A DNA stretch of 64,000 bases. Origin: Mesorhizobium sp. (GTDB lineage Bacteria; Pseudomonadota; Alphaproteobacteria; Rhizobiales; Rhizobiaceae). Shown here in pieces: positions 18,166 to 27,157 of the stretch. The stretch spans positions 94,699 through 158,698 of the forward strand of contig SUGL01000014.1 of NCBI GenBank assembly GCA_004963905.1, given 5' to 3'. Under the pieces are notes generated by a model. The model did no database searches. It was not told the origin of the DNA and saw only the letters and a list, made by a program, of their open reading frames with translations. Each line of letters starts with the position of its first letter. Position 1 is the first letter of the stretch. The translations under genes and the position numbers were made by a program.

Positions 18166-18892
18166 ATGTTCGAGCCGCTTTGCTGCGACATGCCGCTTCA
18201 TCCGACCTGGCCGGATCTCGCCGCGCGGCTGTTGGCGACACTGGTCGCGGGTTTTCTCATCGGTTTGAACCGCGAAGCGCGCGGCCACTCCGCCGGGCTG
18301 CGCACGACCAATACTGGTCGGCCTCGCGGCCTGCGTCGCCATGGTCCAGGCCAACATGCTGCTCGATGTGTCCGGCAAAGGGCCGGACTCCTTCGTGCGC
18401 ATGGACGTGATGCGTTTTGCGCTCGGCGTGCTCACCGGCGTCGGCTTCATCGGCGGCGGTGCCATTCTGAGGCGCGGCGATCTCGTCACCGGTGTCACCA
18501 CCGCCGCCACCATGTGGATCGTGACGATGATCGGGCTGGCCTTCGGCGGCGGTCAGTTCGGCCTCGCCGCAATCGCGACCGTTCTAACGCTGGTGACCCT
18601 GCAGGCCCTGAAATGGGTCGATTTGAAGATTTCTCGCGACCACAAGGCGATCCTGTCGGTCTCGTGGCCGAAGAGTTCGCCGCCCGATATTGGGGACATG
18701 GTGCGCCCGCTCGGCTACGACGCACGCTTCGTCGGCATGGAGCACGATACCGACCGCCACTGCTACGTGTTTTCCTTCAACGTTCAATGGAAGCAGCCCG
18801 ACGCGGTCGAGCCTTCGACGGACGTGTTGGCGGTGATCGCCGAGCACTGCGCGGTCGAGCGCTTCGAGGTGATCGGGGAGAAGCCGTTTTGA
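18166..18892 (+). pseudogene. mgtC: MgtC/SapB-family membrane protein, frameshifted
   Basis: The first frame encodes the MgtC beginning LLATLVAGFLIGLNREARGHSAGLRTT up to codon 18307-18309. The second frame then continues it exactly as ILVGLAACVAMVQANM ... LTGVGFIGGGAILRRGDLVTGVTTAATMW and a soluble C-terminal domain ending at 18892. One extra A at 18310 or 18311 accounts for the shift. The family normally has about 230 residues with five membrane helices and helps survival at low magnesium and in phagosomes. The start is uncertain (ATG 18166 or 18190). A sequencing error cannot be excluded. Confidence 0.85.
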
Positions 18893-18908
18893 TCGTCGAC
18901 CGGCAGGC

Positions 18909-20138
18909 TTACTCGGCGGCGTCTGGCGTCTCGGCGTCGGCGCGAACGAGCTTGATATCCGCTCCCGCCGCCCAGGCGCCAATGTCCTCGCGGCGCAGCG
19001 CGGCGGCCATCATGTCGGGGAAGTGATCGGGCGTGCAGGCAAAGACCGGGATACCCAGCGCCGCGACCGAACCGGCCATCGAGGGATCGTAGCCGGGCCG
19101 GCCCTGGTCGGTGAGCGCCAGAAGCACGATGACATTGACGCCCGACTGCACCAGCGCGGCCAGCCTTTGCAGAAGCTCCTTGCCGTTGCCGCCCTCGTAG
19201 AGGTCGGTGATCAAGATGAAATGTGCCTTGGTCGGCCGTTCGATGCGCCCAGCGCAATAGGCGACCGCCTGGTTGATGTCGGTGCCGCCGCCGAGCTGAA
19301 CGCCGAACAGCACCTCGACCGGATCGCTGAGCTCTTCCGTCAGATCGACGATCGCGGTGTCGAAGCAGACGAGCTTGGTGCGCACGACCGGCAGTGATGC
19401 CATAACGGCGGCGAAGATCGAGGCGTAGATCACCGAGCTTGCCATCGAGCCGGACTGGTCGACGCATAAAGTCACCTCGTCGAGGTCGACAAGCCGGCGC
19501 TGGCGACGCATGAAGCCGACCAGCTTTTCCGGCACGACGGTCTTGTGATCCGGCTGATAGTGGCGAAGGTTGGCCGCGATGGTGCGCGGCCAGTCGATGT
19601 CGCGCTGCCGTGGCCGGTTGGTGCGCCGCGAGCGGTCGAGCGCGCCGCGGATCGCTTCGGCGGTCTTCTGTTCCAGGCGCTGCATCAGCTTGGCGACGAT
19701 ATCGGAAATGATCGAGCGCGCGATGTCCTTGGTCTTCTCCGGCATAGCCGAGCGCAGCGAGACTAGGTCGGCGACGAGATTGACGTCGGCCTCGATCGCC
19801 TTGAGGAACTCCGGCTCCATCAGCATCTGCTTCAGGTTCAGCCGCTCGAAGGCGTCCTTCTGCACGACCTGGACGACCTGCTCGGGAAAGAAGGAGCGGA
19901 TATCGCCCATCCATTGCGCGACGCGCGGCGCCGAGCGGCCGAGCCCGCCGCGCCGCTTGCGCGGATCGCCGGCCTCCTCGCCATCGCCATAGAGCGCGTC
20001 GAGCGCCGCCGAAAGCCGCCGGTCCTCGGCCGACAGCGCCGAGGAAGACTCTTCGTCGGCGCCGATCGCCAGCCGCCAGCGGCGCTCTCGTTTGTCTTCC
20101 GTCGGATGGAGCTCTGGGCCGATCGTTTCATCGTCCAT
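18909..20138 (-). CDS. VWA-domain (CoxE-like) protein
   Basis: A 409-residue cytoplasmic protein. The first 200 residues are helical and charged. The C-terminal half is a von Willebrand A domain with a complete MIDAS: DQSGSM (Asp227, Ser229, Ser231), Thr286 in LGGGTDI, and Asp312 in ILITDLYEGG. Such proteins usually work with a MoxR-type AAA ATPase, which is encoded two genes upstream. The start at 20138 (GGGGGAG 6 bases ahead) overlaps the end of the DUF5682 gene by 11 bases, implying coupled translation. It is the last gene of the five-gene operon and converges on the broken mgtC. Partners or targets are unknown. Confidence 0.9.
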   Translation of the reverse strand: MDDETIGPELHPTEDKRERRWRLAIGADEESSSALSAEDRRLSAALDALYGDGEEAGDPRKRRGGLGRSAPRVAQWMGDIRSFFPEQVVQVVQKDAFERLNLKQMLMEPEFLKAIEADVNLVADLVSLRSAMPEKTKDIARSIISDIVAKLMQRLEQKTAEAIRGALDRSRRTNRPRQRDIDWPRTIAANLRHYQPDHKTVVPEKLVGFMRRQRRLVDLDEVTLCVDQSGSMASSVIYASIFAAVMASLPVVRTKLVCFDTAIVDLTEELSDPVEVLFGVQLGGGTDINQAVAYCAGRIERPTKAHFILITDLYEGGNGKELLQRLAALVQSGVNVIVLLALTDQGRPGYDPSMAGSVAALGIPVFACTPDHFPDMMAAALRREDIGAWAAGADIKLVRADAETPDAAE

Positions 20139-22389
20139 GGCCGGGCTCCCCCGCAAGCAGCTTGCCGATGATGCCGAAATGCCGGCGCCAGGCCTCGCCG
20201 CCGTCCGGCGCCGGCATCAGGCCGGCGGGCAGGCTCGCCCGGCGGCCAAGCACGGCCTCGATCAGGCGCCGGCGCTCCATGCTGTCGAGATTGGAGAAGA
20301 CGCGGCGCAGCAAGGGCAGATGCGCCACGAACGCCTCTTCGTCGAGCGATGCCAGCCATGCATCGACGGCGCCGCGCAGGCCCTCGTCATAGATCAGCCT
20401 CTGGCCGGCGCCGCTGAAGAAGCCTTCGAAGAAAGCGGCGGCATCGATGACCGGCGTTCCCGGCGACAGGCGCTTCGCCAGAAGGTCGGCCGTGGCTCCG
20501 GCCGAGAGCCGCCCGACCTCGTAGAGCAGGTGCGCGGCACAGCCGGCAACGAGCGCCGTCGAGCGCGACGAATCGAGCACGGCGGACAGGCCGCCCCGCC
20601 ACGCCTCCAGGACATGTTCGTCCGGCTCCACCAGCCTGATCGCCTCGTCGGCCTTGCGCAGTGCGGCCATCAGCGCCGCGGCAGCCTGCGCGTCGAGATC
20701 GCGCGCGGCGTAAGGCAGTGCGATCGCGCCTTCGATGATCAGCCGTTCCAAGAGGCCGGCAAGCCGCTCCGTCTCGGTCTTGCGCGCTTCGCCGTAGCGG
20801 ATGATGTCGGCGAGCGGCGGCACCGAGGCGAGTATCTCCAGGCACTCGCTGCTCACCGCCGCCTTTTCCTCGAGCGCGGCGAGGCCGGCCGCGGACGCCT
20901 CGCTCAAGGCGGCCCTGATCGCGCTCTGGACCAGCGCAGCCAGAGCGTCGAGCGTTGCGGCGGCGCCGATCATCTGGACCAGGCGACCGTTGGCGGCCTT
21001 CTCGATGGTGGGCCCGTAGATCAGGTTTTCGACCAGGCGCACGGCATATTCCGGCTGCCAGGCCAGCATCCAGCGCTCACGGAACGTGCCGCGGCTGCGG
21101 CCGACATCCGTCAGCCTGCCCCAGTTTACGCCAAGCACGTTCAGCCGGTGCAGCAGCGTCGAGCGGAAGAGCCCACTCTCGCTGCGCAGGTCGATGGAGA
21201 GTTCCCGCTCCAGCGCCTCCGGCTTCAGCCGAGCCGCCTTCTGGTTGCGCTGCAGGTCGTCGATCAGCGGCGCAAGCGGCGTATCGGGCGGAATCTCGCC
21301 GACATCGGCGCCGAGCAGCAGCTCGGCCTCGACCATCTTCCACAGCAGGGCCTCGCCGTTGAAGAGCGCCGCGATCGAGGCGTCGCGCAATTCCTCGAAA
21401 CCGGGCTTCGGCCGCTCGCGAATGGCGGCGAGCGCGCGCGCCAGACGCTCTGCTTCGATCAACGACGCCGTCGAGATCATGTGGCCCTTGGCGCGGAGTA
21501 CCGTGGCGATCCGCGCGAGCCACAGAACCGAGGCGTCGTCCTGCCCCCGCGTCTGCCACAGATGCTTGCACCAGCCGGGCGCGACGACGCCGGCGCCGTA
21601 GCCATAGCCCAGCGCCAGGCGCGGTCCAGTCCACGGCGCATAAGTCATCGTGGTCTTGCGCCGGCCGATGTCCTTGAGCAGCGCCTGGTCGCTCTTTTGC
21701 GTATGCGCGGTCCGCAAGGCCGGCACATGCCAGGCGCCGCAGACGACGGCCAGCGGTCCGTCGAACTCCTTGCGCGCGGCCGCGATCTCCAGCCGCATAT
21801 GCGCCTCGCGCATGGCCTCCAACTTGCCGATCGCGCCCTCGCCGTCGCGCAGCGTCGTCATCGCGTCGGCGATGGCCGCGAAGATCGGGCCAGGATCAGG
21901 ATTCTGCTCGATGATATCCGACCACCAGCTTTCGCCGTCCTCATAGCCGGCGGCGCGCGCCAAGGTGCCGATCGGATCCTGGATGCGCGCGGTCTCTTCG
22001 CCCTGCGCTTCCGTGACTTCGGCCTCGGCGGCATCGGCGCCGGTCGACCCTTCAGGCGCCTTCTCCGCAAGCCTCGCGGCCGACGGAAGATCGATGAAGC
22101 GCAGCGCCGCCTTGTTGGCGACGGCCCAGAGTGCTGCCTGATATTCGGGCGAGAATTCGGCGAAGGGCCAGAAGCTGGTCGCGGCTGGGTCGTCCTCCGG
22201 ATAGCAGAGCAGCGCCACCGGCGGCTTCATGTCTGCGCTGGCAAGCAGCGGCAGCAGCGGCGACGCGTCCGCCGGCCCTTCGACCAGCACGGCGACCGGC
22301 TGCAATTCCTGCAACGCCTTGACCAGGCTCTCGGCAGAGCCCGGCCCGTGATGGCGTATGCCGAAATAGCTGATGCCGCCCTGCGTCAT
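20128..22389 (-). CDS. DUF5682-type protein with TraB/ChaN/EreA-like motifs
   Basis: A 753-residue soluble protein. The N-terminal 240 residues hold four motifs in the order expected for the TraB/TIKI/ChaN/EreA hydrolase superfamily: YFGIRHHGPGS (8-18), VLVEGP (34-39), MREAHM (193-198) and VVCGAWHVP (215-223). The remainder is Ala/Leu-rich and probably helical repeats. This suggests a metal-dependent hydrolase or peptidase-like domain with a scaffold tail, which is inference from motifs. The gene starts 3 bases after the MoxR gene stop and overlaps the VWA gene. I recognise the family only as a frequent neighbour of MoxR and VWA genes. Confidence 0.75.
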   Translation of the reverse strand: MTQGGISYFGIRHHGPGSAESLVKALQELQPVAVLVEGPADASPLLPLLASADMKPPVALLCYPEDDPAATSFWPFAEFSPEYQAALWAVANKAALRFIDLPSAARLAEKAPEGSTGADAAEAEVTEAQGEETARIQDPIGTLARAAGYEDGESWWSDIIEQNPDPGPIFAAIADAMTTLRDGEGAIGKLEAMREAHMRLEIAAARKEFDGPLAVVCGAWHVPALRTAHTQKSDQALLKDIGRRKTTMTYAPWTGPRLALGYGYGAGVVAPGWCKHLWQTRGQDDASVLWLARIATVLRAKGHMISTASLIEAERLARALAAIRERPKPGFEELRDASIAALFNGEALLWKMVEAELLLGADVGEIPPDTPLAPLIDDLQRNQKAARLKPEALERELSIDLRSESGLFRSTLLHRLNVLGVNWGRLTDVGRSRGTFRERWMLAWQPEYAVRLVENLIYGPTIEKAANGRLVQMIGAAATLDALAALVQSAIRAALSEASAAGLAALEEKAAVSSECLEILASVPPLADIIRYGEARKTETERLAGLLERLIIEGAIALPYAARDLDAQAAAALMAALRKADEAIRLVEPDEHVLEAWRGGLSAVLDSSRSTALVAGCAAHLLYEVGRLSAGATADLLAKRLSPGTPVIDAAAFFEGFFSGAGQRLIYDEGLRGAVDAWLASLDEEAFVAHLPLLRRVFSNLDSMERRRLIEAVLGRRASLPAGLMPAPDGGEAWRRHFGIIGKLLAGEPGHGR

Positions 22390-22392
22390 GGC

Positions 22393-23472
22393 TCAGATGG
22401 CCGCGTTCAACGCCGCGTAGTAGCCGGCATAGTCCGGACGCTTCTTCAGCACCGTCTCCAGATATTCCTCCAGCACGACCTTGTCCTGGACCGGATCCTT
22501 GACGATGGCGCCGACCAGGCTCGGCGCCAGGCCTTCGGCATGCAGTTGGCCGCCGTCGAACCATGCCGCCTGGCTGAGGCCGCTGATCATCGTGGCGATC
22601 GCCTCGGCGGTGGAGAGCGAGCCCGACGGCGTCTTCAGCGTCACCTTGCCGTCCGAGGTCGCGCCGGAGCGCAGCTCGCGGAAGATGGTGAGCACGCGGG
22701 CGATCTCCTCGCCGACATTTTTCGGGACCGGCAGGTCCAGCCCGCCGGCCATCTCGCCGACGCGCCTGGAGACGATGGAGACCTCTTCCGCCATATCCTC
22801 CGGCAGAGGCAGCACCACGACGTTGAAGCGCCGCTTCAGAGCCGAGGAGAGTTCGTTGACGCCCTTGTCGCGATTGTTGGCCGTGGCGATGATGTTGAAG
22901 CCGCGCTGCGCGTAAATCGAGGTGTTCAATTCCGGCACCGGCATCATCTTTTCGGACAGCACGGTGATCAGCGTGTCCTGCACGTCGGAACCCATGCGCG
23001 TCAGCTCTTCGAGGCGACAAAGCTTGCCTTCCTGCATGGCGCGGTAGAGCGGCGTCGGCACCAGCGCCTCCTGGCTCGGACCTTTTGCCAGAAGCTGGGC
23101 ATAGTTCCAGCCATAGCGGATCTGGTTCTCGTCGGTGCCGGCCGTGCATTGCACGATCAGCGTCGAGTTTCCCATGATGGCGCCGGCGAGATGTTCCGAG
23201 ACCCAGGACTTCGCCGTTCCCGGCACGCCGAGCAGAAGCAGCGCCCGGTCGGTCGCGAGCGTCGCGACCGCGGTTTCCATCAGTTGGCGGCGGCCGACAT
23301 ATTTCGGCGTGATGAGCGTGCCGTCGCTCGCCTTGCCGCCCATCAGGTAAGTGAGGACGGCCTTGGGCGACAGGCTCCAGCCGGCAGGCTTTTGCCGATC
23401 ATCGTCGCGCGCGAGCGCCTGCAGTTCGGCGGCGTAGACCTGCTCGGCCGGAAGGCGGATGGCTGCGTTCAT
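22393..23472 (-). CDS. MoxR-type AAA+ ATPase
   Basis: A 359-residue AAA+ ATPase with Walker A GVPGTAKS (82-89), sensor 1 in IIATANNRD (about 194-202) and an arginine-finger region at FRELRSG. The Walker B position reads LCRLEEL (151-157), with Glu in place of the usual Asp. MoxR ATPases remodel or activate partner proteins, normally together with a VWA protein, and a VWA gene lies downstream in the same operon. The upstream DUF5691-type gene ends 19 bases before it. No membrane segment is present. Confidence 0.9.
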   Translation of the reverse strand: MNAAIRLPAEQVYAAELQALARDDDRQKPAGWSLSPKAVLTYLMGGKASDGTLITPKYVGRRQLMETAVATLATDRALLLLGVPGTAKSWVSEHLAGAIMGNSTLIVQCTAGTDENQIRYGWNYAQLLAKGPSQEALVPTPLYRAMQEGKLCRLEELTRMGSDVQDTLITVLSEKMMPVPELNTSIYAQRGFNIIATANNRDKGVNELSSALKRRFNVVVLPLPEDMAEEVSIVSRRVGEMAGGLDLPVPKNVGEEIARVLTIFRELRSGATSDGKVTLKTPSGSLSTAEAIATMISGLSQAAWFDGGQLHAEGLAPSLVGAIVKDPVQDKVVLEEYLETVLKKRPDYAGYYAALNAAI

Positions 23473-23491
23473 GCGATCTTCTCCGGGTTGA

Positions 23492-24928
23492 TCATCTGGT
23501 TGGGTTTCCGGCCAGCGCCGCGTTGAGGCGCAGCAGGCCGAGCGATGGGGAAGCGGGCGGCAGGCCGGCGGCGACGACCTCGCCGATTAATTTTTCCGCC
23601 GTAACCGGATTGGCCAGAAAGCCTATGGCTTCGAGATACTGCTCGGCGCTTCGTTTCGTGACGTCGTTGTCACCCGAGACGGCGGAACGCAGCGCCGAAA
23701 GCGCCTTGCCGTTTGCAAGATCGCCCCATTCGAGCCAGCCTGCTTCCGCGCCTTCGATCAGGTTGAGCGCGGCCAGATTTTGCGCATCATTGAGGATCTG
23801 CCTGATCAGCACACGCTTCCTGCCGCCGTCCAAACGCAACATGAGCTGGAGGACGAGAAGCGCCAGCTTGCCGCCGGCGGCGACAAGCAAATCCGCCAAG
23901 CAGGCCACCGCCGCATCGCCGCCGGACACCGAGACCATCCGAACGAGAAAGAAATCGGCGCCGTCATCGATGCCGAACTGCCACGCGCCGATGAAATCGG
24001 ACTCCGTCTTGCCGAAGCGAGCGACGAGATCGCCGAAGTAACAGGATGCGAACAAATCGGCGCGGCGTGCCTGTTGCGCAGGCGATTTGAGCTTTATCGG
24101 CGCGTAGGTGAAGCGGCGGCGGATGAAGCCGGCCTTGCCTTCCTCGATGAAAGCGGCGAGCTCAGCTGTCGAATCTTCCGACCCGCCATCCGTTGGATTG
24201 CCGCGTTCCCCCAATCTTGCCAGCAGCCGGCCGGCCATTTCGCGCACCTTGCCCGAGCGGTCGGCGGACAGGCTCTTCAGAAACGGAACGTCATCGGCAT
24301 TGAGGCCGAAGCGCAAGAGTTCAATGAGCGCCAGCCTGACCTCCGCCGGCTCGCTTGCTCCCTTGGTCTCGATAAGAGTACGCGCCAAGGCAGGCATGGT
24401 GCGCCGTAAATCGACCAGCGCGGTAAGGCGCGCGGCGGGATAGAAATCATCCCAGGTCTCCGCCGTCAGATGCTCGCGTCGGGACTGTTTTTCGCTGTCC
24501 GCGCCCGCCTGCCAGTCGACCCACGGAGCATAGACGTCCGGACTTTCTTGATATGACGCGGCGGGCATCCAATCCATCGGATGCAGCACGAAGCCGCGGC
24601 TGGCGACCAGCGCGGCCACGCGGGTCTTGAGCCTCGCATCGGCCGCATATTTCAATGCGGCACGCAGCAACGGCCGCAGCCGTTCGGGAAGCATCGGCAG
24701 GGCCAGAACCGGCAGCGGCGGACGCCGCTTTAAGATTTTCGGCGCCGCCGGGCGAAGCGCGACATCGAGCGCTTGAGCGGCGATGACCAACAGCCGCCGC
24801 TCCTGCTCGTCGGGGCTGGCGGCAGCGGCAAGCTCCTTCCACTCGGGCGGCGCAAGCTCGAAACCGGCGCCGCCCGAAATCCAGCCGTCGCGCAATCGTG
24901 CCAGCCCTGCCTGCTCCAGCTCGTTCAT
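23492..24928 (-). CDS. DUF5691-type helical protein
   Basis: A 478-residue soluble protein, rich in Leu, Ala and Arg, with no catalytic motif I can identify. Sections such as PLLRAALKYAADARLKTRVAALV and ARLGERG look like HEAT-type helical pairs. The conserved-looking core HPMDWMPAA and VYAPWVDW lies around residues 130-155. The ATG overlaps the stop of the SWIM gene (ATGA), so the two are translationally coupled. From context it is probably a scaffold or adaptor of the MoxR/VWA assembly. I know it only as a member of this gene neighbourhood. Confidence 0.7.
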   Translation of the reverse strand: MNELEQAGLARLRDGWISGGAGFELAPPEWKELAAAASPDEQERRLLVIAAQALDVALRPAAPKILKRRPPLPVLALPMLPERLRPLLRAALKYAADARLKTRVAALVASRGFVLHPMDWMPAASYQESPDVYAPWVDWQAGADSEKQSRREHLTAETWDDFYPAARLTALVDLRRTMPALARTLIETKGASEPAEVRLALIELLRFGLNADDVPFLKSLSADRSGKVREMAGRLLARLGERGNPTDGGSEDSTAELAAFIEEGKAGFIRRRFTYAPIKLKSPAQQARRADLFASCYFGDLVARFGKTESDFIGAWQFGIDDGADFFLVRMVSVSGGDAAVACLADLLVAAGGKLALLVLQLMLRLDGGRKRVLIRQILNDAQNLAALNLIEGAEAGWLEWGDLANGKALSALRSAVSGDNDVTKRSAEQYLEAIGFLANPVTAEKLIGEVVAAGLPPASPSLGLLRLNAALAGNPTR

Positions 24929-26337
24929 GACAGGTCGAGCCTCCCGATGCTGCTTTGCGATGCCAGGAGCTCGAGCCTGGCACCGTTCCAGAGCGCTGCC
25001 GTCGCCGCGAGGTCGAAGCCGAGCAAAGTCTGGCTGACGGAACCCGCGACAGGCAAGGCGATGCCGTGCGGATCGCCGGCCGGCTGCCACCAGGCGCCGT
25101 CCTTCTCATCCAGCGCGATGGCACCCGCCGGCAGGATGATGGGGCAATCCGAGAGCCAGGGCGCGCCATCCTGGAACGCGGCGTAAGCGGCCAGCGGATC
25201 GCCGGTAGCGTCTTCAGCGAAAGTTGGCCACGCGCCCGGCGCCGCATCGCCCAGCCGTTCCGCGACCAGTGCGCGGAGCGGATTGCGGGACGGATAGAAC
25301 ACCAGCCTCGCCTTGAAGCGATCCCCCGGCGCGAAGGCGCCGGAGCGCCGCCCGGCCGATGCCGGAAAGAAGTCGAGCAGGACCGCAAAGCGAGGCGTGG
25401 GGCCTTTCAGATCGAGCAGCCACGTCGCGTGGCTGACCAAACCATCGCGGCGAGTCTCGATCTTCTCGCCAAGCACCTCCCAGTCGCTCTCGACCTGGAC
25501 GGCGTTCGGATCGGCGAGGATCTGGTCGCGTGTTTCCGACGTCGAAATCAGACGTTTCAGCTCGGCGTCGTCGGGCGCGGCGCGCCAGGCCTTGGCGATG
25601 AGCACCAGCTTGCCGAGCTCGCGGATCGCAGCGTCCGGCCGCTCCTCGCCGCGCAGTGCCATCAGCCGCGCCGGCAGCTCGTCGATACGACCGGCCAAAG
25701 CGGTCGCCTTCAGGTCGACAAGCCTTGCGGCGATGCGGCGACAGCGCTCGCTGCTGGCGTCGACAAATCCGGCAAGGCCAAGCCGAAGCTGGTCGGCAAT
25801 CCACTGGTCGAGCTCATCGAGCGCCGCCGAAACCGCGGTTCGCGTGTCCTCGACCCGCTTGCGCTGTGCCGCCTCGCGGCGCTCGGCGGCCGCGGCGTCT
25901 TCGACCGGGGCGCTTTCCTCAGGCCGCGCGGCCTCGTCGATGCTCTTGCCTTCGGCGCGTGCTGGCGCTGCCGTCGGCGGCTGACCCGGCTTGCGGCGGC
26001 GGCCAAGCCAGTCGTTCACCCATTCCGGCGTCTGATCGACTTGGGCGAAACTGTCTGGCGCGGTGGCGCCGATCCACATCAGCGCCAGAATGTGCTTGCA
26101 CGGAAACTTGCGCGACGGACAGGTGCATTTATAGCCGTGATCCGACGTATCGAATGCGACCCGGTAGGGATTCGAGCCGGAGCCCTGGCATTCGCCCCAG
26201 ATCAGCGGCAGCTGTTCATGCGCTTCAAGCCGGGGCCAGTTCGACCGCTTGGTCAGCTTGGCGGCGGCGCCAAGCGAGGCCTGATCGGGGGCTAAAGCCT
26301 CGATTGTTTTCAAATCCAGCTGCAAACCGCCCCCCAT
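24925..26337 (-). CDS. SWIM zinc-finger protein
   Basis: A 470-residue protein and the first gene of the five-gene operon. The SWIM motif CxCx6CxH is intact at Cys71, Cys73, Cys80 and His82 (CTCPSRKFPCKH), after an N-terminal segment ending in VAFDTSDHGYK. Residues 120-190 are charged with a low-complexity Pro/Ala/Glu linker. The C-terminal half (about 200-470) has no recognised domain. SWIM domains bind DNA or protein. The operon promoter should lie in 26338-26443, which shows no clear consensus boxes. Confidence 0.85.
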   Translation of the reverse strand: MGGGLQLDLKTIEALAPDQASLGAAAKLTKRSNWPRLEAHEQLPLIWGECQGSGSNPYRVAFDTSDHGYKCTCPSRKFPCKHILALMWIGATAPDSFAQVDQTPEWVNDWLGRRRKPGQPPTAAPARAEGKSIDEAARPEESAPVEDAAAAERREAAQRKRVEDTRTAVSAALDELDQWIADQLRLGLAGFVDASSERCRRIAARLVDLKATALAGRIDELPARLMALRGEERPDAAIRELGKLVLIAKAWRAAPDDAELKRLISTSETRDQILADPNAVQVESDWEVLGEKIETRRDGLVSHATWLLDLKGPTPRFAVLLDFFPASAGRRSGAFAPGDRFKARLVFYPSRNPLRALVAERLGDAAPGAWPTFAEDATGDPLAAYAAFQDGAPWLSDCPIILPAGAIALDEKDGAWWQPAGDPHGIALPVAGSVSQTLLGFDLAATAALWNGARLELLASQSSIGRLDLS

Positions 26338-26443
26338 GACCCCGAAGCATCACGTCGCGACGATTGATAGCCGTTTGCGGCGCGCCGGTGTAGCTCCAGC
26401 CGCAGCAAAATTCAGGCCTTATCTAATGTCGCGTTGCCCTGCC

Positions 26444-27157
26444 TCAGGCGGGCATGGCGGTATCGGCTCCGCCGAGATAGAGCCGGTGCAGTTCGTCCGG
26501 CGATTGGCGAAGATTGCCGCAGTCGCCGTCGTAGACGACGCGGCCGCGGCGCATGACATAGGCGCGGTCGCCGATCGACAACGCGAGTGCTGCGAACTGC
26601 TCGACGAGAAGCACCGCCAGGCCATCGTCGGCGAGCCTGCGCACCGCCGTCATCAGCCGCGTGACGATGACCGGCGCCAGGCCGGCCGACATCTCGTCGA
26701 TCAGCAGCACCTTCGGGCGGGTGAGAAGCGCCCGCGCGATGACCAGCATCTGCTGCTCGCCGCCGGAAAGCAGGCTCGCCTTCACCGCGCGGCGCTGCAG
26801 CAGCTCGGGAAAGAGCGCATAGGCCTCCTCGATGTCGGCGCCCGAATGCAGGCTGACGCGCAGGTTCTCTTCGGTCGTGAGCTGGCGGAAGACGGTGCGG
26901 CCCTGCTCGACATGAGCGAGGCCTTCGCGCGAGCGGGCGCCCGGCCGCGCCTTCTGCAGCTCATGGCCGTCGATGGCGATTACGCCGCCGGCGACAGGGA
27001 TGATGCCCGACAGGCCCTCGAGCAGCGTCGTCTTGCCGGCGCCATTGGCACCGAGCACGACGCTGATCGCGCCGCTCTCGGCGACGAGGTCGACCGAGGT
27101 GACGACGGGAAGCTCGGCGCGATTGATCGACAGGTTGGAAACGACGAGCCTGCTCAT
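26444..27157 (-). CDS. livF: Branched-chain-type ABC importer ATPase (LivF)
   Basis: A 237-residue ATPase with Walker A GANGAGKTT, signature LLSGGEQQMLVIARAL and Walker B KVLLIDEMSAGL. Its start overlaps the stop of the fused LivM-LivG gene (ATGA). Together with LivH, LivM-LivG and the binding protein upstream it makes a complete HAAT-type importer. These importers take up branched-chain amino acids but also amides, urea and aromatic acids, so the name does not fix the substrate. It is the last gene of the minus-strand run that starts at the aminotransferase. Confidence 0.9.
   Translation of the reverse strand: MSRLVVSNLSINRAELPVVTSVDLVAESGAISVVLGANGAGKTTLLEGLSGIIPVAGGVIAIDGHELQKARPGARSREGLAHVEQGRTVFRQLTTEENLRVSLHSGADIEEAYALFPELLQRRAVKASLLSGGEQQMLVIARALLTRPKVLLIDEMSAGLAPVIVTRLMTAVRRLADDGLAVLLVEQFAALALSIGDRAYVMRRGRVVYDGDCGNLRQSPDELHRLYLGGADTAMPA

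Follow-up and report, generated by a model that had tools for sequence, protein, structure and literature searches.

A Mesorhizobium operon of SWIM, DUF5691, MoxR, DUF5682 and VWA genes related to Deinococcus ddrTUVWX and Escherichia coli yehL-yehM-yehP

The window analysed here is a stretch of 64,000 nucleotides from a Mesorhizobium sp. assembly (GCA_004963905.1, contig SUGL01000014.1), which contains an operon of five minus-strand genes encoding, in order, a SWIM zinc-finger protein, a DUF5691 protein, a MoxR ATPase, a DUF5682 protein and a VWA protein. The operon was identified as a relative of the radiation-induced ddrTUVWX operon of Deinococcus, and its last three products as homologues of YehL, YehM and YehP of E. 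coli. The best reading of the system, to which we give about an even chance, is that of a stress-responsive, ATP-driven remodeller working a TraB-like DUF5682 hydrolase or binding protein. A preliminary description of this DNA, made from the letters alone, had found no phenotype obvious from the neighbouring genes, but it missed both the YehL-YehM-YehP core and the published radiation-induced ddrTUVWX, and hence the regulatory lead that these provide.

All five products exceed the cut-offs of their own Pfam families, and all features of the operon given below lie on the minus strand. The first gene encodes the SWIM zinc-finger protein (24925..26337; 470 amino acids; DdrT position; PF04434, 26.7 bits), whose translation may instead begin at a TTG (26325), judging from upstream sequences. 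This is followed by the helical, HEAT-like DUF5691 protein (23492..24928; 478 amino acids; DdrU position; PF18944, 73.5 bits), the MoxR AAA+ ATPase of the YehL type (22393..23472; 359 amino acids; DdrV position; AAA_5, 132.1 bits), the DUF5682 protein (20128..22389; 753 amino acids; YehM counterpart; DdrW position; PF18934, 692.6 bits) and the CoxE-type VWA protein with its metal ion-dependent adhesion site (MIDAS) (18909..20138; 409 amino acids; YehP counterpart; DdrX position; PF05762 (VWA_CoxE), 184.8 bits). Two starts were refined, that of DUF5691 to the ATG at 24928 (replacing a GTG at 25090), which forms an ATGA overlap with the SWIM stop, and that of VWA to the ATG at 20138 (replacing a TTG at 20156). 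The genes are as tightly packed as had been described, with SWIM and DUF5691 overlapping by 4 bp, gaps of 19 bp between DUF5691 and MoxR and of 3 bp between MoxR and DUF5682, and an overlap of 11 bp between DUF5682 and VWA. None of the five proteins was found to have an over-cut-off match in NCBIfam or a strong match in PADLOC (best E 0.0042).

Active-site-type residues were found to be conserved among relatives of each protein (alignment row counts include the window's own copy). In the MoxR Walker A motif (GVPGTAKS; 23206..23229), G82, P84, G85, T86, A87 and K88 are present in 80/80 rows, with S89 in 76 and Thr in the other four. A Glu-Glu pair (E155 E156; 23005..23010) stands at the Walker B place in all 80 relatives, Asp-Glu being the usual pair in AAA+ proteins. 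The SWIM motif CTCPSRKFPCKH (26092..26127) has invariant columns in the alignment, and its zinc ligands C71, C73, C80 and H82 were present in 76 of 77 rows, the remaining row being a gap. The DUF5682 motif GIRHHG (22345..22362), aligned to the GExH motif of ChaN and a likely counterpart of the TraB/ChaN GxxH, retains R12, H13, H14 and G15 in 76/77 rows (the remaining row is gapped), while E37 of the motif LVEGP (22279..22281) is found in 77/77. H221 of the motif CGAWHVPAL (21727..21729), aligned with both TraB and ChaN as the likely counterpart of their last His, is found in 75/77, both exceptions being gaps. The MIDAS of the VWA protein (DQSGS; 19446..19460) is intact as had been stated, with D227, S229, S231, T286 and D312 identical in 72/72 rows. 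Over the 68 rows with all five proteins, window included, mean pairwise identity was 0.67 for MoxR, 0.59 for VWA, 0.42 for DUF5682, 0.34 for SWIM and 0.215 for DUF5691, the last two being the fastest-diverging components. Pairwise identities of the components correlate in the same rows (Spearman 0.75-0.87), a result that host kinship alone could yield.

Co-occurrence of the five genes was investigated from three anchors. A MoxR-anchored scan of genome contigs confirmed at least 591 relatives, of which the 80 most window-like were kept; as these are the best by likeness to the window, the set is biased to its type. All five genes were found together in 70 of the 80 loci, which supports the coherent five-part unit that had been proposed, and the 68 loci used for a tree come from seven phyla, going by the titles of their records. 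As the same order recurs across phyla, the set is not a chance one. Among the ten incomplete loci, contig ends fall inside or near the operon in L063, L067, L087, L107 and L121, and in L113 MoxR stands alone on a 5.3-kb contig. The Moraxella locus L072 was found to be without SWIM and DUF5691, L108 without SWIM and VWA, and L125 without VWA, while L114 has an unassigned gap of 1.5 kb at the expected place of DUF5691. Separately, on a Methylosinus plasmid (L134) no VWA gene is annotated after DUF5682 and insertion sequence genes come next; this copy may be damaged or its gene table incomplete.

The second anchor, DUF5682, gave a sample independent of likeness to the window. DUF5682 was identified in 14/398 Pseudomonadota, 7/198 Bacteroidota and 21/296 Actinomycetota genomes. 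Neighbourhoods were fetched for 14 of 16 match rows in Pseudomonadota (the window's own and one 19-bit match being left out), for six of seven in Bacteroidota (the seventh, L086, has all five genes) and for 30 of 33 in Actinomycetota, giving 29 loci (left out were G435, which is L118 and has all five, and two G893 rows). Both MoxR and VWA were found beside DUF5682 in 13/14 Pseudomonadota loci, the single miss (L039) reaching a contig end, and in 29/29 of Actinomycetota. DUF5691, the third anchor, exceeded its cut-off in 7/398 Pseudomonadota genomes, the same seven that hold high-scoring DUF5682; two further genomes matched DUF5691 below the cut-off, both lacking DUF5682. Among 14 control genomes, Deinobacterium chartae was positive for DUF5691 and DUF5682, and E. 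coli for DUF5682 alone. In the window's own genus, DUF5682 was present in 10/25 genomes, its own included, and absent from five further members in the Pseudomonadota survey.

The five genes occupy an accessory segment of 7551 bp (18893..26443). It is bounded on one side by the stop codon of an ATP-binding cassette (ABC) transporter ATPase gene (26444-26446) and on the other by that of an mgtC-like gene (18890-18892), which runs convergently. In a relative without DUF5682 (G055), the same two flanking stops lie 6 bp apart, both in long open frames; gain and loss of the segment are both compatible with this empty site. As the segment is fully accounted for by the operon together with 16 bp and 106 bp, neither an integrase nor an insertion sequence could fit in it. 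MoxR matches at the E 1e-30 level were found in 40 records of a plasmid collection, some of them chromosome-sized. A FastTree phylogeny of MoxR, DUF5682 and VWA from the 68 loci required 10 changes of phylum label against a minimum possible of 6, and some of its rows are metagenome bins; it points to inheritance mostly by lineage with some jumps.

Two types of the operon can be distinguished. Type A, that of the window, has the order SWIM-DUF5691-MoxR-DUF5682-VWA, while type B, found in E. coli and others with a variant on an A. vitis plasmid, has the order DUF4132-MoxR-DUF5682-VWA-large SWIM. A YehI/DUF4132-profile protein also joins seven of the 80 MoxR-anchored loci (L092, L093, L099, L100, L104, L106, L114). 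Single-frame gene fusions were identified in actinobacterial loci, joining DUF5682 to VWA in six (L238, L242, L245, L247, L251, L265) and SWIM to DUF5691 in two (L249, L256; the SWIM match of L249 begins no earlier than profile position 127). Other actinobacterial loci carry SWIM and DUF5691 as a pair with divergent transcription (three Streptomyces loci among the 80 MoxR-anchored and eight among the DUF5682-anchored). Because of these fusions and divergent pairs, MoxR-DUF5682-VWA can be regarded as the core and SWIM-DUF5691 as a separable pair. In four further actinobacterial loci (L243, L248, L250, L252), a distant DUF5682 (151 to 216 bits) has MoxR and a VWA protein of great length as neighbours; these loci may represent a third type of the core.

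In E. coli K-12, yehL-yehM-yehP encode homologous MoxR, DUF5682 and VWA proteins in the gene order of the window. MoxR is 42% identical to YehL over 362 columns, the full length (E 8e-81), DUF5682 is 28% identical to YehM (E 3e-37) and VWA is 36% identical to YehP (E 3e-77). Seven subfamilies of MoxR have been named, YehL among them (PMC3893208). Of the two E. coli MoxR proteins, YehL and RavA, the comparison covered YehL; the full-length match and the DUF5682/VWA order place the window MoxR in the YehL type. SWIM and DUF5691 gave no BLASTP match at E 0.01 among six proteins of the E. coli K-12 region. The E. coli locus differs in that DUF4132 (YehI) precedes MoxR, separated from it by the small yehK, and its own SWIM protein, YehQ, is last and larger, with no significant similarity to the window SWIM by BLASTP or profile. 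Relatedness of type A SWIM to YehQ was thus rejected (profile probability 6.6%), and DUF5691 gave no convincing profile match to YehQ or DUF4132 (0.3% and 9.2%). At least 80% of yehL-yehQ is contained in 5162/5426 complete E. coli genomes (95%), and seven YehM relatives of type B show no variation at the residues matching R12-H13-H14, E37 and H221 of DUF5682.

Relations of DUF5682 were examined with profiles of TraB (26/30 loci usable), ChaN (9/9) and erythromycin esterase (Ere; 14/15) built from the relatives' genomes. The N-terminal part of DUF5682 was found to align in motif register with TraB (REAxM...CGAWHVP with RNxxM...VGALHLP) and with ChaN, from GExH through the last GxxH. Scores of 28.4 for TraB and 26.1 for ChaN lie above all 59/59 and 60/60 column shuffles respectively (best 20.7 and 22.1), while controls gave 22.1 for VWA, 19.2 for Ere, 17.0 for SWIM, 16.2 for DUF5691 and 14.8 for reversed TraB; TraB against ChaN itself scored 24.6. 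Kinship to TraB/ChaN, as had been claimed, is therefore suggested by these profile scores and is likely, not proven. The erythromycin esterase candidate was rejected, as its score is lower than that of the VWA control. Neither TraB nor ChaN was among the 25 families listed of the 38 matched at E of 1 or lower in single-protein Pfam scans of 61 DUF5682 members. HEAT_2 matches at E of 0.1 or lower were found in 8/37 DUF5691 members. Among solved structures, the best match of MoxR was to the AAA domains of midasin, and nothing useful matched DUF5682, SWIM, DUF5691 or VWA. A further DUF5682 relative (31% identity) was noted on a 14-kb unannotated record of a phage collection (MT835988.1, 10839-12752), possibly a bacterial contig.

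The lead to function comes from Deinococcus. In D. deserti, ddrTUVWX (Deide_18730 to Deide_18690) is radiation-induced and IrrE-dependent, with a DdrO motif before the operon; the SWIM gene is induced more than 10-fold, and Deide_18720, Deide_18710 and the VWA gene Deide_18690 more than 5-fold (PMC5552922). The gene and DdrO motif are marked in D. deserti, D. gobiensis, D. maricopensis and D. peraridilitoris (PMC5552922), and the operon was reported as a radiation-regulated five-gene unit in 2009 and 2017 (PMC2669436, PMC5552922). The first gene is described there as SWIM, the third as MoxR-like and the fifth as VWA; by gene order, Deide_18720 would be DUF5691 and Deide_18700 would be DUF5682. 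A chaperone composed of MoxR-like Deide_18710 with the VWA protein Deide_18690 has been suggested, along with conservation of the operon in various species (PMC2669436). On a plasmid of D. taeanensis (L132), SWIM, DUF5691, AAA, DUF5682 and VWA genes were found in the order of the window, with a MoxR 64.3% identical to that of the window and an additional small hypothetical gene of 237 bp between MoxR and DUF5682 (L132:13065-13301). Using a DdrO matrix built from 24 published D. radiodurans sites with an assumed GC-rich background, a DdrO-type site of 17 bp (L132:9041-9057) was identified 19 bp upstream of the first codon of SWIM (9077). It is the best in 25 kb, scoring 22.1 and 21.8 on the two strands, with the next separate place at 8.9 among 50,062 windows; known sites, left out singly, score 11.5-27.7. 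The score was reached in 0/2000 shuffles of the 200-bp upstream stretch and in 0/1000 of a repeat.

In D. radiodurans, DUF4132 and WGR genes, which are kin of the type B partner, are under damage control as well: DdrO regulates DRA0166 (DUF4132) and DR2173 (WGR), and both increase upon exposure to mitomycin C (PMC8533742). The gene molR appears in lists of SOS- or LexA-regulated genes (PMC3978071, PMC11039860). This gene we take to be the yehF-yehI region, which adjoins yehL. A CTG-N10-CAG match begins 25 bp before yehF; it is weak alone, as there are 17 such matches in the 26-kb region.

Under the proposed reading, MoxR would form an ATP-driven ring with the MIDAS VWA protein as its partner. 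DUF5682, TraB/ChaN-like and with an invariant His-Glu-His set, would be the fixed third part of the core, probably binding metal, possibly as a hydrolase, and either acting on a client or presenting it. SWIM and DUF5691 may be a separable two-protein adaptor for client recruitment or damage sensing, probably working via zinc-dependent contact with nucleic acid or protein, and ATP hydrolysis by MoxR would remodel the assembly of DUF5682, VWA and client. The roles of sensor for SWIM and effector for DUF5682 that the preliminary description had assigned are, likewise, presumptive. The whole could then be a stress-survival module, in Deinococcus made upon DNA damage under IrrE/DdrO, and a damage role may extend beyond that genus. 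A more specific proposal, which we put forward tentatively and consider rather doubtful, is an undescribed damage-response machine in which the MoxR ring, together with the MIDAS protein, would bring a TraB-like metalloprotease or hydrolase to bear on clients selected by the adaptor; the zinc-finger/HEAT adaptor would be swapped for DUF4132/WGR in the E. coli type, giving one core with two exchangeable, damage-linked adaptors that has spread as a unit across many phyla.

Several observations weigh against the stress-responsive reading. On the side of the proteins, hhalign probabilities for DUF5682 are low in absolute terms (5.5% for TraB, 4.0% for ChaN), reversed ChaN scored 21.4 against 26.1 for the real profile, and in Bacteroidota MoxR and VWA stand beside DUF5682 in only 3/6 fetched loci (misses in L233, L235 and L236). 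As for induction in D. deserti, Deide_18700, at the DUF5682 position, is missing from the 35 most induced genes as printed (PMC5552922), and all five proteins are outside the printed 23 most induced proteins. The operon is absent from D. radiodurans and D. geothermalis and so cannot be a requirement for radiation resistance in itself. No DdrO-type site was found before the window operon (26338-26640; best score 1.7), which makes the operon a relative of ddrTUVWX and not a member of its regulon. In 66 other upstream regions the DdrO matrix peaked at 20.7 and 20.6, in AT-rich Bacteroidota, but these scores were reached by 23 and 5 of 1000 shuffles (5 to 111/1000 for the top five), and DdrO-type sites outside Deinococcus were rejected as chance peaks after 66 tests. 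LexA boxes of the alpha pattern (both strands) and the E. coli pattern were found in 0/67 upstream regions and the Bacillus-type pattern in 1/67 (L118; 0.38 expected), while no box of four LexA patterns was present in 131 upstream regions (lineage sets of 47, 17, 26 and 41). Control by LexA was accordingly rejected, at the level of consensus only. With no DdrO site in the window and no consensus LexA box in the 131 regions, damage control is established for Deinococcus alone, where it may be a local co-option.

The surroundings of the operon were examined for defence genes and for possible clients. From 172 candidate flank proteins (for each locus the closest three lying no more than 5 kb away, after removal of 12 near-duplicate loci), 99 from loci up to L112 were scanned with PADLOC and Pfam. 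Ten PADLOC models matched at E 1e-10 with one protein each, a descriptive result obtained without a background set, and no Pfam family occurred in more than three of the 99 proteins. When 617 flank open reading frames were clustered by similarity, the largest cluster covered 15/80 loci with 17 members, and the six members scanned were a mix of ABC-transporter ATPases; a conserved neighbour or client gene was rejected on this basis. In the window itself, a branched-chain amino-acid type ABC transporter set lies upstream on the same strand, and the mgtC-like gene (18166-18892, plus strand) downstream. Pfam MgtC matched the latter in two frames (profile 1-27 and 46-118), so it looks split by a frameshift or assembly error.

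An anti-phage or conflict system, with MoxR-VWA as the threshold-setting part and DUF5682 as effector on the pattern of MoxR-vWA ternary systems, had been raised as a possible setting and would agree with the patchy distribution in Pseudomonadota and in the window's genus, the plasmid-collection records, the clean empty site, the rapid divergence of SWIM and DUF5691, and a window MoxR that passes the bpMoxR cut-off (29.4 against 27 bits). However, the five proteins have no strong PADLOC match, the PADLOC matches of the flanks are scattered singles rather than a defence island, and Pfam applied to the window VWA protein alone identified VWA domains only, with no effector domain. Moreover, the E. 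coli version is near-universal, viral contigs yielded two weak MoxR fragments, and a DUF5682 relative turned up in a single record of the phage collection. The defence setting was thus not borne out, and we consider this explanation unlikely. It appears quite unlikely as well that the operon provides a maturation chaperone dedicated to a single metalloenzyme whose gene lies at another place in the genome, on the model of CoxD/CoxE, NorQ/NorD or CbbQ/CbbO. In favour of this, the VWA protein is of the CoxE type, and among precedents the MoxR-VWA pairs of known client have been studied best. Against it, no recurrent metalloenzyme client adjoins the operon, no Pfam family occurs in more than three of the 99 scanned flank proteins, the most widely shared neighbour cluster is the ATPase mix found at 15/80 loci, and the operon is common to organisms of very different metabolism.

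It is possible, though on balance doubtful, that the system is a machine for proteostasis or remodelling in general, its damage regulation in Deinococcus reflecting no more than local capture of a promoter. Each lineage would then use its own promoter, which fits with the lack of LexA boxes elsewhere and of a DdrO-type site at the window. Against this, D. radiodurans regulates genes of the DUF4132 type in response to damage, and such genes are joined to the operon in either of its versions; the listing of molR as SOS- or LexA-regulated points in the same direction. The stress-responsive remodeller is kept as the best reading, and the match to E. coli yehL-yehM-yehP makes the role of the operon testable in ordinary laboratory strains. 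The link between ddrTUVWX and yehLMPQ gives YehL-class MoxR ATPases a concrete phenotype to test, namely DNA damage, oxidative or zinc stress, while the fusions point to pairs for purification and the invariant residues to targets for mutation. In PubMed Central (PMC), the coverage of which misses most subscription journals, this link was not met in print, no function was found for the yehL-yehM-yehP core, DUF5682 and DUF5691 were unnamed, no two of DUF5682, DUF5691, MoxR and 'SWIM zinc finger' were mentioned together, and two or more of yehL, yehM, yehP and yehQ were mentioned in the same text only in two genome reports, judging by titles. Among the 15 papers listed of 241 with a ddrTUVWX term, the two on Deinococcus alone used it in the present sense.

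Compared to known systems, DUF5682 differs from the TraB/PrgY/GumN and ChaN families by more than 400 additional C-terminal residues. CoxDE, NorQD and CbbQO have the genes of their client enzymes linked to the pair; beside the operon described here, no recurrent client gene was found. MoxR-vWA ternary conflict systems also consist of MoxR, VWA and a third conserved protein (PMC7159879), but the third components VMAP, iSTAND, FtsH and beta-propeller were not found by Pfam in the five window proteins, bpMoxR passing its cut-off on MoxR alone. Those systems also bear variable effector domains on their VWA protein, where that of the window gave VWA matches only. Another close system is ddrTUVWX, which has a DdrO operator and radiation induction where the window has no such site, and whose five-gene order of SWIM, DUF5691, MoxR, DUF5682 and VWA is shared by both the window and D. 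taeanensis.

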